64,000 nucleotides of DNA. Origin: Streptomyces sp. ICBB 8177 (GTDB lineage Bacteria; Actinomycetota; Actinomycetes; Streptomycetales; Streptomycetaceae). Location of the stretch: contig NZ_NSKH01000018.1 of the NCBI RefSeq assembly GCF_003144095.1, forward strand, positions 2,013,541 to 2,077,540, written 5' to 3'. This document shows, piece by piece, positions 16,938 to 23,254 of the stretch; positions within the stretch are counted from its first letter, which is position 1, and every line of letters begins with the position of its first letter. A program made the translations under genes and the position numbers. The notes beneath the pieces are model-generated. The model made no database searches, was not told the DNA's origin, and saw only the letters and a program-made list of their open reading frames with translations.

Positions 16938-18250
16938 CCAGCAAGAATCGCCGGGAGCACGACCGGCGCACCTATGTCCTCGACACCAGCGTGCTGCTGG
17001 CCGACCCCAACGCCGTCATGCGGTTCGACGAGCACGAAGTCGTGCTGCCGGTCGTCGTGGTGACGGAGCTGGAGGCCAAGCGCCACCACCCGGAACTCGG
17101 CTACTTCGCCCGCCAGGCGCTGCGGCTGCTGGACGAGTACCGGATCCGCTACGGGCGGCTGGACGCGCCCATCCCGATCGGGGAACTCGGCGGATCGCTC
17201 AGGGTCGAGCTGAACCACTCCGACCCGGGCGTGCTTCCGGCCGGCTTCCGGCTCGGCGACAACGACTCGCGCATCCTGGCGGTCGCCCGCAACCTGCAGG
17301 CGGAGGGGTACGACGTCACGGTCGTCTCCAAGGACCTGCCGCTGCGCATCAAGGCGTCGTCCGTCGGGCTGCTGGCCGAGGAGTACCGCGCGGAACTCGC
17401 CATCACCTCCGGGTACACCGGGATGGCGGAGCTCCAGGTGACCGGCGCGGACGTCGACCGGCTCTTCGCGCAGGAGAGCGCCGTCCTGCCGGGCACCGAG
17501 GAACTGCCGGTCCACACCGGTCTGGTGCTCCAGTCGGAACGCGGCAAGGCGCTGGGCCGGGTCACCGAGGACGGCGACGTCCGGCTGGTGCGCGGCGACC
17601 GGGAGGCGTTCGGGCTGCACGGCCGCAGCGCCGAGCAGCGGATCGCGCTGGACCTGCTGCTCGACCCGGAGGTCGGCATCGTCTCGCTGGGCGGCCGGGC
17701 GGGCACCGGCAAGTCCGCGCTGGCGCTGTGCGCGGGCCTGGAGGCGGTGCTGGAGCGGCGGCAGCACCGCAAGGTGATGGTCTTCCGGCCGCTGTACGCG
17801 GTGGGCGGGCAGGAGCTGGGCTACCTGCCGGGCAACGAGTCGGAGAAGATGAGCCCCTGGGCGCAGGCGGTCTTCGACACGCTCTCGGCGGTCACCTCTG
17901 CGGACGTCATCGAGGAGGTCGTGGAACGCGGCATGCTGGAGGTGCTGCCGCTGACCCACATCCGGGGCCGCTCGCTGCACGACGCCTTCGTGATCGTGGA
18001 CGAGGCGCAATCCCTGGAGCGGAACGTGCTGTTGACCGTTCTGTCCCGGATCGGCGCCGGATCGCGGGTCGTTCTCACCCATGACGTGGCACAACGGGAC
18101 AACCTCCGGGTCGGACGATATGACGGAGTGGTCGCCGTGGTGGAGAAACTGAAGGGTCATCCGCTTTTCGCCCACGTGACGCTGACCCGTTCCGAGCGTT
18201 CCCCGATCGCCGCACTGGTGACCGAGATGCTGGAGGACGTCCAGCCGTAA
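16931..18250 (+). CDS. PhoH-like ATPase with N-terminal PIN domain
   Basis: 439 aa. The N-terminal PIN ribonuclease-like domain has [27 protein letters not shown] and [15 protein letters not shown], acidic residues that bind metal. The C-terminal PhoH domain has Walker [13 protein letters not shown] (~257-268), [18 protein letters not shown] and Walker [13 protein letters not shown]. Related PIN-PhoH proteins act as RNA helicase/nucleases. A second GTG follows the first directly. Confidence 0.93.
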
Positions 18251-18306
18251 GGGCTCCGCCGAAGCAGTGGCCAACGGTCGCTGCGCGTAAAGGATTTGAC
18301 ACGCTG

Positions 18307-18339
18307 AGGCTGCTGCGTCCGCGAAGGGCGCAGCAGCCT
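18307..18339 (+). terminator. terminator after phoH
   Basis: AGGCTGCTGCG and CGCAGCAGCCT form a perfect 11-bp stem with an 11-nt loop, 57 bp past the phoH stop. Confidence 0.8.
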
Positions 18340-18444
18340 AGTCGTGTCCGGTGGCGACACGCCGGAGTTTCCGCAAACCGGCAGGCCCAAACGCGTTGTG
18401 ACGTTCGCCACGCAACTGAGAATTGCCTTGGCGCGTCATTGTCG

Positions 18445-18660
18445 GGCAGTGTGTGGGGCTGTCAGGCCCCGCTTACGGCACACCCGCACCGGCGACGGTG
18501 CGAAACCCCCCAGAACTGAACAGTGTTGGCCGTAAGCCGCCCAGCACCACGCGGACCCCGCCTCGGGGATCGCACCGGGCCCGTGCCTCCCGTGACCAGT
18601 CGGACTCCGGTCCGTCACCAGGGGGAGGCCAGCGTCAGGGGCACGATTGCGTCCGCGCGG
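18445..18660 (+). promoter_or_regulatory. structured 5' leader of the transglycosylase gene
   Basis: The gap between the phoH terminator and the next start is over 300 bp and rich in inverted repeats. GCTTACGGC (18471-18479) pairs with GCCGTAAGC (18529-18537). Inside it, CGCACCG-GCGA-CGGTGCG (18485-18502) makes a hairpin with a GNRA tetraloop. Further on, GTGAC...GTCAC encloses a GGAC/GTCC hairpin (about 18593-18619). Riboswitches control wall-lytic genes in related bacteria, but I could not match a known class. Confidence 0.5.
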
Positions 18661-18692
18661 TCACCACGCGGGCGATGCTGGAAGGAAACCGT

Positions 18693-19373
18693 GTGAGCCG
18701 GATCTCCGTCCGGGGTATCGCCGTAGCGTCAGCGACCGCGGTCACCACCGTGGGCGCCGTCGTGGGCGTGGCCTCTGGCAGCGAGCCGACCGCCGCAGCC
18801 GCGCAGCCCGTCGCCGACGCGACCTCGCTCGACACCATCGTCGACGGTCAGCAGACCAACGCGCAGGTCGCGTCGCTGACCGAGCAGGTCCAGTCGCAGC
18901 AGGCCGCCGCCGACGCCGCCGCGAAGCAGGCGGCCGAGCAGGCCGCGCGCAAGAAGGCCGCCGCCGACGCCGCCAAGAAGAAGGCGGAGGCCGAGGCGAA
19001 GGCCGAGAAGGAGAAGCAGGAGGCCGCCAGCCGCGACGAGCAGCGCCAGTCGCTGTCCACGCTGAGTTCGGGCGACTACTCGGTCGCGGGCATCCAGGCG
19101 ATGGCCCAGCAGATCATCGGCAACGAAGCGCAGTACGAGTGCTTCTCCTGGATCGTCTCGCACGAGAGCGGCTGGAACTACCAGGCGACCAACGCCTCCT
19201 CCGGCGCCTACGGCCTGGTGCAGGCCCTGCCCGGCTCCAAGATGGCCTCGGCGGGCGCCGACTGGCGGACCAATCCGGCCACGCAGATAAAGTGGGGCCT
19301 GGGCTACATGAACGACCGGTACCACAGCCCCTGTGGCGCCCAGCAGTTCTGGGAGGCCAACGGCTGGTACTGA
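18693..19373 (+). CDS. secreted lytic transglycosylase-like protein
   Basis: 226 aa. An N-terminal signal/anchor (residues 1-~40) precedes a coiled coil extremely rich in Ala, Lys, Gln and Glu (about 55-120). The SLT-type domain carries QYECFSWIVSHESGWNYQATN (catalytic Glu in HESGW), SGAYGLVQALPGSKM and GLGYMNDRY. It would cut peptidoglycan glycan strands. GTG with GGAAGGA seven bases upstream is the start; ATG at 18675 is a weaker option. Confidence 0.88.
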   Translation: MSRISVRGIAVASATAVTTVGAVVGVASGSEPTAAAAQPVADATSLDTIVDGQQTNAQVASLTEQVQSQQAAADAAAKQAAEQAARKKAAADAAKKKAEAEAKAEKEKQEAASRDEQRQSLSTLSSGDYSVAGIQAMAQQIIGNEAQYECFSWIVSHESGWNYQATNASSGAYGLVQALPGSKMASAGADWRTNPATQIKWGLGYMNDRYHSPCGAQQFWEANGWY

Positions 19374-21040: not shown

Positions 21041-21577
21041 TCAGGCCGAGGCCAGCGCCGCTTCCGCGTCCAGCGTGGTGGCGACGGCCTGCACGACTGC
21101 CGCGATCTTGAACGCCTCCTGGACGACCTCGCGGCTCACGCCGGCCTTGCGCAGCACCTGCTCGTGCGAGTCCAGGCACTGGCCGCAGCCGTTGACCGCG
21201 GAGACCGCGAGCGACCACAGCTCGAAGTCGGCCTTCTCCACGCCCGGGTTGCCGATGACGTTCATCCGCAGGCCCGCGCGCAGCGTGCCGTACTCGGGGT
21301 CCGACAGCAGGTGCCGGGTGCGGTAGAAGACGTTGTTCATCGCCATGACGGCGGCGGCGGCCTTCGCCGCGGTGTACGCCTCGGGGCTCAGGTTGGCCTT
21401 GGCCTCCGGCTCCAGCTCGCGCAGCACGATGGGGCTGCGCGAGGCGATGGCCACCGCGAGCACGGTGCCCCACAGCTGCTGCTGCGGCAGGTCGGAGTTG
21501 CCGATGACCGAACCCAGGTTGAGCTTGAGGTCCTTGGCGTAGTCCGGCAGCGCGGACTTCAGGGTGTCGAGTGCCAT
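21041..21577 (-). CDS. ahpD: alkyl hydroperoxide reductase AhpD
   Basis: 178 aa. AhpD recycles AhpC in actinobacteria using a CxxC centre. The motif [11 protein letters not shown] gives Cys131, Cys134 and His138; the acidic Glu of the relay lies upstream. The gene follows ahpC with a 9-bp gap, so they form one OxyR-controlled operon against peroxides. Confidence 0.95.
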
Positions 21578-21586
21578 GTCAGCGGG

Positions 21587-22144
21587 TCACTCCCCGGCGA
21601 GCAGCTTGACCGGGTCCAGGGTCTCGTCGCCCTTGCTCCAGTTGCACGGGCACAGCTCGTCGGTCTGCAGCGCGTCGAGCACCCGCAGGACCTCCTTGGG
21701 GTTACGGCCCACGGAACCGGCGGTCACCATCGAGAACTGGATCTCGTTGTTCTGGTCGACGATGAAGACCGCGCGCTGCGCGAAGCCGTCCTCGCCCTCG
21801 ACGCCGAGGGCGCGCATCAGCTCGTGCTTGGAGTCGGCCAGCATCGGGAACGGCAGCTCACGCAGGTCGGCGTGGTCACGGCGCCAGGCGTGGTGGACGA
21901 ACTCCGAGTCGCCGGAGACGCCGAGCACCTGCGCGTCGCGGTCGGCGAACTCCTCGTTCAGCTTGCCGAAAGCGGCGATCTCGGTCGGGCAGACGAAGGT
22001 GAAGTCCTTCGGCCAGAAGAAGACGACCGACCAGCCCTTGCTGTAGTCCTCGGAGCTGTACTCCTTGATCTCCAGCTTGTCGTCGGACGGGCCTTCCACG
22101 CCCATGAGCTTCCAAGCGGGGAACTGGTCACCGACAGTGAGCAT
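21587..22144 (-). CDS. ahpC: peroxiredoxin AhpC
   Basis: 185 aa typical 2-Cys peroxiredoxin. The peroxidatic Cys is Cys52 in DFTFVCPTE; the resolving Cys is in the C-terminal DELCPCNW. It reduces H2O2, organic peroxides and possibly peroxynitrite, then is re-reduced by AhpD. AGGAG lies 8 nt before the ATG. Promoter and operator are shared with the divergent oxyR. Confidence 0.97.
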   Translation of the reverse strand: MLTVGDQFPAWKLMGVEGPSDDKLEIKEYSSEDYSKGWSVVFFWPKDFTFVCPTEIAAFGKLNEEFADRDAQVLGVSGDSEFVHHAWRRDHADLRELPFPMLADSKHELMRALGVEGEDGFAQRAVFIVDQNNEIQFSMVTAGSVGRNPKEVLRVLDALQTDELCPCNWSKGDETLDPVKLLAGE

Positions 22145-22186
22145 TGAGGGGTCTCCTGTGCTTGTGCGGGTTGGACGGAACCCACC

Positions 22187-23254
22187 GTGCCACAGGCAAG
22201 ATTGATCACGGAAATCGCCCCGGCTCGACCTACTGATAGGTATGGCCGATCAGTACCCTGGGGGCTGTCCACCGCACCCTCCGGTGCCCCCGCCACCGCA
22301 CCTCCCAGGGAGCCGGCCGTCAAAGCGCAGCGTCAGCCCAGCCTCGCCCAGCTCAGGGCGTTCGCCGCGGTCGCGGAGCACCTGCACTTCCGGGACGCCG
22401 CCGCCGTCACCGGCACCAGCCAGCCCGCGCTGTCGGCCGCCGTCGCCGCGCTGGAGGACGTCGTCGGCGTACGGCTGGTGGAACGGACCACCCGCCGCGT
22501 GCTGCTCACCCCGGCCGGGGAACGGCTCGCGGCGCGGACACGCAGCGTACTGGACGCGGTCGCCGACCTGATGGAGGAGGCGGAGGCGGTACGGGCGCCG
22601 TTCACCGGCGTGCTGCGGCTCGGCGTCATCCCGACGGTGGCGCCCTACCTGCTGCCGTCCGTGCTCGGCCTGGTCCACGACCGCTATCCGGACCTCGACC
22701 TCCAGGTCCACGAGGAGCAGACCGCCTCGCTGACCGAGGGCCTGACCGCCGGACGGCTCGACCTGCTGCTGCTCGCGGTGCCGCTGGGACTGCCCGCGGT
22801 CACCGAACTGCCGCTGTTCGACGAGGACTTCGTGCTGGTCATGCCGCGCGACCACCGGCTCGCCGGACGCGACGACATCCCGCGCTCCGAACTGCGCGAC
22901 CTCGACCTGCTGCTGCTGTCCGAAGGGCACTGCCTGCGCGACCAGGCCCTCGACATCTGCCGCGAGGTGGGCCGTGCCGAGGGGGCGCCGGTGACCACCA
23001 GCGCGGCCGGCCTGTCCACCCTGGTCCAGCTGGTCGCGGGCGGCCTCGGCGTCACGCTGCTGCCGCGCACCGCGGTCCCGGTCGAGGTGGGCCGCGGCGC
23101 CCGGCTGGCCACCGGGACCTTCCAGGACCCGGCGCCGGTGCGGCGGATCGCGCTGGCGATGCGAGCGGGGGCGGCGCGGGCCGAGGAGTTCGAGTCCTTC
23201 GCCGCCGCCCTGCGCGACACCCTGCGCCCGCTGCCGGTACGCATGGCGGCCTGA
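22187..23254 (+). CDS. oxyR: LysR-type peroxide sensor OxyR
   Basis: Up to 355 aa. The helix-turn-helix (SLAQLRAFAAVAEHLHFRDAAAVTGTSQPALSAAVAALE) is followed by the inducer domain. The redox pair is EGHCLRDQALDIC, the C-x8-C spacing of OxyR. The start is unresolved: GTG at 22187 (used here) or TTG at 22202 would place the operator inside the gene. No ATG/GTG/TTG lies between 22256 and the DNA-binding domain, only CTG at 22265 and a GTC at 22319 behind GGGAG. Divergent from ahpCD. Confidence 0.9.
   Translation: MPQARLITEIAPARPTDRYGRSVPWGLSTAPSGAPATAPPREPAVKAQRQPSLAQLRAFAAVAEHLHFRDAAAVTGTSQPALSAAVAALEDVVGVRLVERTTRRVLLTPAGERLAARTRSVLDAVADLMEEAEAVRAPFTGVLRLGVIPTVAPYLLPSVLGLVHDRYPDLDLQVHEEQTASLTEGLTAGRLDLLLLAVPLGLPAVTELPLFDEDFVLVMPRDHRLAGRDDIPRSELRDLDLLLLSEGHCLRDQALDICREVGRAEGAPVTTSAAGLSTLVQLVAGGLGVTLLPRTAVPVEVGRGARLATGTFQDPAPVRRIALAMRAGAARAEEFESFAAALRDTLRPLPVRMAA
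22231..22255. promoter_or_regulatory. candidate OxyR operator
   Basis: TACTGAT-N11-ATCAGTA is a perfect 7-bp inverted repeat with the 11-bp spacing expected for a LysR-type T-N11-A site. It lies between ahpC and oxyR and would control both. Confidence 0.7.

Follow-up and report, generated by a model that had tools for sequence, protein, structure and literature searches.

The 442-nt gap between the end of a PIN-PhoH gene (18250) and the GTG start (18693) of a gene for an SLT-domain hydrolase in Streptomyces sp. ICBB 8177 almost certainly carries a conserved cis-regulatory RNA, as judged from comparison across the Streptomycetaceae. Its covarying sense-strand fold spans from the predicted start of transcription to the Shine-Dalgarno sequence of one SLT gene. 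The reading favoured here, with a probability of roughly 0.6, is that of a cis-acting regulatory leader behind a CRP-type promoter, the fold of which would limit ribosome access to the GTG codon; that control would be exerted mainly at translation is given about an even chance. The features are collected in Table 1, with positions counted in the window, i.e., the whole stretch of 64,000 nucleotides that was analysed.

Table 1. Features of the leader and of its surroundings (positions in the window).
Feature	Position	Strand	Remarks
CRP/GlxR-like operator	18398-18411	+	GTGACGTTCGCCAC; fits GTG-N6-GNCAC
Putative promoter	18423-18452	+	TTGCCT (18423-18428), 18 nt, CAGTGT (18447-18452); fixed offsets in homologues
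Predicted 5' UTR of about 235 nt (conserved, structured)	18459-18692	+	comparative
P1 5' strand	18466-18470	+	GCCCC; pairs with 18638-18642
P2 5' strand	18471-18479	+	pairs with 18529-18537
P2a hairpin, GCGA (GNRA) loop	18485-18502	+	CGCACCG-GCGA-CGGTGCG; variable in homologues; 77% of cells paired (59 leaders)
P2 3' strand	18529-18537	+	pairs with 18471-18479
P3 5' strand	18539-18542	+	GCCC; pairs with 18577-18580
P3a hairpin inside P3	18555-18569	+	variable; 54% of cells paired in fixed register (59 leaders)
P3 3' strand	18577-18580	+	GGGC; pairs with 18539-18542
P4 5' strand	18586-18591	+	pairs with 18623-18628; 18585:18629 may extend it
P4 loop	18592-18597	+	GUGACC; kissing partner of 18659-18664
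P4 3' strand	18623-18628	+	pairs with 18586-18591
P5 5' strand	18629-18635	+	CCAGCGU; could pair with 18675-18681, overlapping GG of the Shine-Dalgarno sequence
P1 3' strand	18638-18642	+	GGGGC; pairs with 18466-18470
P6 5' strand	18650-18656	+	pairs with 18668-18674
P6 loop	18659-18664	+	GGUCAC; kissing partner of 18592-18597
P6 3' strand	18668-18674	+	pairs with 18650-18656
Shine-Dalgarno sequence	18680-18686	+	GGAAGGA; seven columns invariant (59 leaders)
SLT-domain (lytic transglycosylase) hydrolase gene	18693-19373	+	GTG start; PF01464, E 3.2e-7
P7, possible hairpin over codons 2-7	18698-18713	+	CCGGA/UCCGG; each of five pairs can form in 139-144 of 144

The original prediction of nested stems ahead of a transglycosylase gene was borne out, with stems present at 18445-18660 and an SLT domain recognized in the product of the gene that follows. 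The closest named relative among the matches listed is Streptantibioticus parmotrematis (93% protein identity). Next downstream lies a gene for an AI-2E-type transporter and, further on (21041-23254), AhpD-like, AhpC-like and divergent OxyR-like genes were recognized by eye. Judging from gene order, SCO5029 is probably the orthologue in S. coelicolor. It is reported that SCO5029 is induced by moenomycin and repressed by bacitracin and vancomycin (PMC3123327). On the other side of the gap, a strong hairpin without a T run (18308-18338, GGCTGCTGCG...CGCAGCAGCC) is located immediately 3' of phoH and is possibly the end structure of that gene; two weak Rfam hits, CC1840 and Ms_IGR-8, match this hairpin.

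A wide occurrence of the leader was found within the family. The gap DNA was matched, in whole or in part, in 290 of 297 Streptomycetaceae genomes (E up to 0.001). Amongst the seven genomes without such a match, G002 bears a leader detected by R1, a model of the 3' domain (E 1.8e-6), G011 gave a full-length profile match (L146, E 6e-16), and G037 and G206 were left without assignment; in the divergent genus g5, a diverged leader is visible by eye in three of four genomes. The leader set consists of the better ones among the matches listed for the gap DNA, together with matches from further searches. Out of 203 loci, 12 gave no profile hit and one (L144) a weak hit, leaving 190 leaders of which 159 are distinct; the three g5 leaders (L213-L215) were inspected by eye and do not form part of the alignment. 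The 159 distinct leaders are 193-281 nt long (median 236), and their identity to the window leader has a median of about 66% and a minimum of 44%. An SLT homologue directly follows 157 of them, when the window SLT protein is compared with the next frame (E up to 1e-5); one exception ends at a contig edge and the other is L079.

With strict filters, R1 matched 22 of 246 genomes in a class-level search and 26 of 41 in an order-level search, every match being in the Streptomycetaceae and the other 15 order-level genomes belonging to two other families; the g5 leaders were not recovered by the R1 search. The sole clear R1 match in the ICBB 8177 genome is the leader itself, and the second copies found in three g15 genomes (G119, G056 and G107; L184-L189) are likewise located before an SLT homologue, indicating that the leader tracks one gene and not a gene set. 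Weak second R1 matches in the ICBB 8177 genome (E 0.94), in G002, G010, G016 and G018 (E 0.2-1) and in G040 and G122 (E 0.05) were regarded as chance, the profile finding no leader there.

In the predicted fold, helices P2, P3 and P4 meet at a junction closed by P1, hairpin P6 comes next, and the P4 loop is complementary to the P6 loop; through P1, the very beginning of the predicted transcript is linked to the stretch adjoining P6. At least 125 of 162 leaders have P1 as GCCCC/GGGGC, and six others are missing one end pair; the count is a lower bound because P2 could not be placed in 6 of the 162 and was misplaced in several more. The two strands of P1 have changed in step in both divergent genera, giving ACCCC/GGGGT in three g2 leaders and, in g5, ACCCTC/GGGGGT in one leader and ACCTCC/GGAGGT in two.

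Eight of the nine P2 pairs are present in 158 or 159 of 159 leaders and the ninth in 149; both sides vary at five of the nine, with 99.4% of cells paired in 59 diverse leaders, and 26 two-sided changes that kept a pair were counted on the tree of 159 leaders against 8 that ended unpaired. The four P3 pairs are complete in all 159 leaders, with C-G replaced by U-A in eight, G-C by A-U in two and C-G by G-C in one (on the tree, two two-sided changes against none unpaired, plus 11 one-sided changes keeping the pair). A competing pairing of GGCCC (18465-18469) with GGGCC (18577-18581) was rejected, as one of its pairs is broken in 8 of 159 leaders, where P3 is kept by a compensatory change. P4 shows two-sided changes at five of its six pairs, with 93% of cells paired (59 leaders); on the tree of 159 leaders, 13 two-sided changes stand against 45 unpaired, 36 of the latter at the two end pairs. 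P6 has 99% of cells paired and two-sided changes at two of seven pairs (59 leaders), and three two-sided changes against 27 unpaired on the tree (159 leaders). Absence of covariation in homologues had been named beforehand as grounds for giving up the idea of a structured leader; compensatory changes were found in P2, P3 and P4. The GNRA-capped hairpin that had also been pointed out is indeed present in the window (P2a) but does not belong to the conserved part, such a loop occurring in only 9 of 159 leaders when hairpins of at least four pairs between the P2 arms are counted.

When the partners were slid by one to three columns in the 59 diverse leaders, pairing of 93% and 85% fell to 30-57%. 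Random column pairs on the tree of 159 leaders have a mean of 0.23 two-sided and 13.1 unpaired changes per pair, and 0.9% of them reach at least three two-sided changes. Under a stricter tree null that keeps column rates (100 leaders, 40 simulations), only 18473:18535 beats every simulated pair, the runner-up being 18478:18530 (E 0.75); significance of single pairs is thus limited, and the case therefore rests on whole helices. G-U cells outnumber A-C cells in P2 (21:4), P3 (12:0), P4 (42:19) and P6 (126:6) amongst the 159 leaders, while the ratio is neutral in P2a (79:84) and unfavourable in P1 (8:34, with all 34 A-C cells at the end pair 18470:18638). On balance, these ratios point to the sense strand as the structured one.

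Folding energy was not unusual for either segment tested, with z -0.92 for 18425-18700 (36 of 200 shuffles equally or more stable) and z -0.55 for 18459-18720 (62 of 200), as expected for GC-rich DNA. It is through comparison, namely the conservation in 290 of 297 genomes and the compensatory changes, and not through energy that the predicted leader stands out from chance. The unconstrained minimum-energy fold of 18459-18720 contains all pairs of P1, P2, P2a, P3, P4 and P6; P5 and P7 are absent from the minimum-energy fold of the window.

A kissing loop between P4 and P6 is likely on comparative grounds. Each of its six pairs is possible in 154-159 of 159 leaders (99.4% of cells in the 59 leaders), and the commonest change, A to G at 18595, keeps the pair as G-U; the interaction is near-invariant, not covarying. 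Both motifs are absent from G016 and from the three g5 leaders, which retain P1, P2 and the CRP-like box despite this loss and offer a natural test of the role of the kissing loop. In three g2 leaders, GUGACC is kept and its partner GGUCAC is gone, and the G011 leader keeps five of the six partner bases. P5, the helix by which the Shine-Dalgarno sequence would be masked, is weak, with 80% of cells paired (59 leaders) and two-sided changes at one pair only on the tree. A candidate switch helix of 18583-18589 with 18638-18644 was rejected, no covariation being found.

On the promoter side, GTG-N8-CAC was found in all 154 testable upstream regions (of 159 leaders), 65-67 nt before the CAGGCCC block, compared with 4.4% of shuffled sequences. 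The stricter form GTG-N6-GNCAC, given as the Crp consensus of S. coelicolor (PMC10033298), occurs in 70 of the 154. Regulation by Crp has been reported for rpfA as well as for other hydrolases (PMC5693915). In 149 of 154 regions AATTG keeps to three neighbouring offsets, and in 134 of 154 GGCA[GT] is at either of its two usual ones; the putative pair of the window was not listed by the sigma-70 scan. A start near 18459 is predicted from the conserved promoter-like pair, and so the leader would be about 235 nt long and not more than 300 nt as had been proposed, even though the gap itself would leave room for it. The same pair argues against a start site near the gene.

The region around the initiation codon also appears to be constrained. 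The two Arg codons within P7 are CGG in 142 and 138 of 143 leaders, whereas elsewhere in the SLT gene Arg is conserved at two more positions, where CGC is used in 81% and 77%. Over 18693-18716, the SLT gene has CGG for Arg and, in the majority of homologues, GGA for Gly, contrary to its own habit. This early codon choice suggests that the RNA is under selection close to where translation begins. Several translated alternatives were rejected. The in-frame ATG at 18675 is kept in 103 of 159 leaders only, and the invariant Shine-Dalgarno sequence lies 3' of it. For the protein to begin further upstream, within the leader, a frame would be needed that is open in just 53 of 155 homologues, and leader lengths are not kept modulo 3. 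When nine start codons of the window were traced through the 159 leaders with downstream sequence, no conserved upstream ORF or leader-peptide attenuator with a constant stop emerged; the best-kept start, GTG at 18592 (157 of 159), has 66 stop positions.

How such a leader might act can be outlined as follows. Transcription would begin near 18459 under cAMP-CRP, the 5' end (P1/P2) would fold back onto the stretch just 5' of P6, and the kissing loop would dock P6 beside the Shine-Dalgarno sequence. Since fold-back and docking together would give a compact fold, perhaps with P5 and P7, access of the ribosome to the GTG start would be restricted. The fold would then be loosened or locked by a signal, either a metabolite or a protein, or by a shift in growth stage, and the level of hydrolase would follow; it may also be that the fold responds to no signal. 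Gating of translation is considered the most likely mode because the fold ends at the Shine-Dalgarno sequence and no intrinsic terminator, such as an attenuator of the rpfB type would have, was found in 18250-18720 of the window.

A small-molecule riboswitch of a new class, in which the P1-P4 junction binds a metabolite (e.g., a second messenger or a wall precursor) and P6/P5 form the expression platform, is a possible but tentative alternative. The junction, the kissing loop and the long near-invariant blocks resemble those of aptamers, and wall hydrolases are known riboswitch targets in the ICBB 8177 genome and other Streptomyces. Such a switch is less easily reconciled with the rule of one copy per genome, the few second copies also lying before an SLT gene, with matches limited to one family, or with the failure of any switching helix to gain covariation support. 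The original prediction had read the region as a structured, possibly riboswitch-like leader outside the c-di-AMP class; the covarying fold and the separation from that class stood, and a riboswitch is kept as a tentative possibility. The proposal is a shade more speculative still in its most specific form. In that form, a new class, built on a four-way junction and a kissing loop between hairpins, would respond to a cue from wall growth or germination and control translation of one lytic transglycosylase across the Streptomycetaceae, alongside but independently of the c-di-AMP riboswitches on other hydrolases.

It is unlikely that the leader is instead a recognition site for a protein or for RNase III, whose action on P2, P4 or P6 would set mRNA stability. 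The long helices and near-invariant loops could serve as protein sites, and covariation of the helices is compatible with this; RNase III substrates usually need no sequence-invariant loops, which tells against the RNase form. Somewhat less probable again is a passive structure with no sensing role, which would make the mRNA more stable or hold basal translation down. It would require no ligand and would suit a leader attached to one gene as a rule, but near-invariant loops and a kissing interaction exceed what stability needs.

Descent from the c-di-AMP (ydaO) riboswitch is very improbable. The class of gene would suit it, and other hydrolase genes of this genome have leaders of that class: as a positive control, RF00379 (ydaO-yuaA) recovers five loci in ICBB 8177 (L135-L139), four of them over the cut-off and the fifth below, before genes recognized by eye as encoding peptidase, NlpC/P60-like and Rpf-like proteins. 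Against this, and in agreement with the earlier view by eye that the leader is unlike this class, RF00379 gave no match at E up to 10 over 18240-18800, where none of five sub-threshold matches was to RF00379 and its gathering score of 38 bits was not reached; no Rfam family reached threshold in the window, nor did any in 20 homologous loci, and R1 has no match at the five RF00379 loci. Conservation at the level of DNA (an operator) or of coding, and not of RNA, is scarcely credible, for beyond the conserved CRP-like box upstream and the in-frame ORF open over the window leader it would have to accommodate the closing of that frame in most homologues, the variable lengths that separate the helix arms and a G-U bias marking the sense strand in P2, P3, P4 and P6.

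Structured cis-regulatory leaders are known as a kind, and the present family is absent from the Rfam copy searched. Like the RF00379 leaders, it precedes a secreted wall hydrolase of Streptomyces, and control by Crp is reported for one gene of that group, rpfA (PMC5693915); it differs in having one copy in the ICBB 8177 genome against four over-cut-off sites. As unrelated leaders share the position before wall hydrolases, that position is a weak criterion for RF00379. The c-di-AMP riboswitch of rpfA is described as acting by premature termination (PMC10117811), whereas no terminator was found here. The switch in the 5' UTR of rpfB in Mycobacterium tuberculosis is similarly restricted to a lineage and attached to a wall-cutting enzyme, with no ligand reported, but it has an intrinsic terminator and serves another gene (PMC6009663). 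The riboswitch candidates dauA, livJ and pntA also occur exclusively or mainly in Streptomyces and have the Shine-Dalgarno sequence within or close to the structure, but precede genes for a STAS protein, a LIV-binding protein and a transhydrogenase (PMC11109978). The comparison with the rpfB switch and with these candidates was made at the level of published descriptions. A literature search turned up no account of the leader, which falls short of proving that none is in print.

There is only partial understanding of how filamentous bacteria keep their own wall-cutting enzymes in check, and some of these hydrolases respond to c-di-AMP via RNA. The leader is probably a built-in control on the timing of a potentially self-destructive wall-cutting enzyme. 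Being compact and having clear predicted helices, it is directly testable and would add an RNA family missing from the Rfam copy searched. It suggests that a second, unrelated RNA control of a wall enzyme has been conserved across this family of antibiotic producers.
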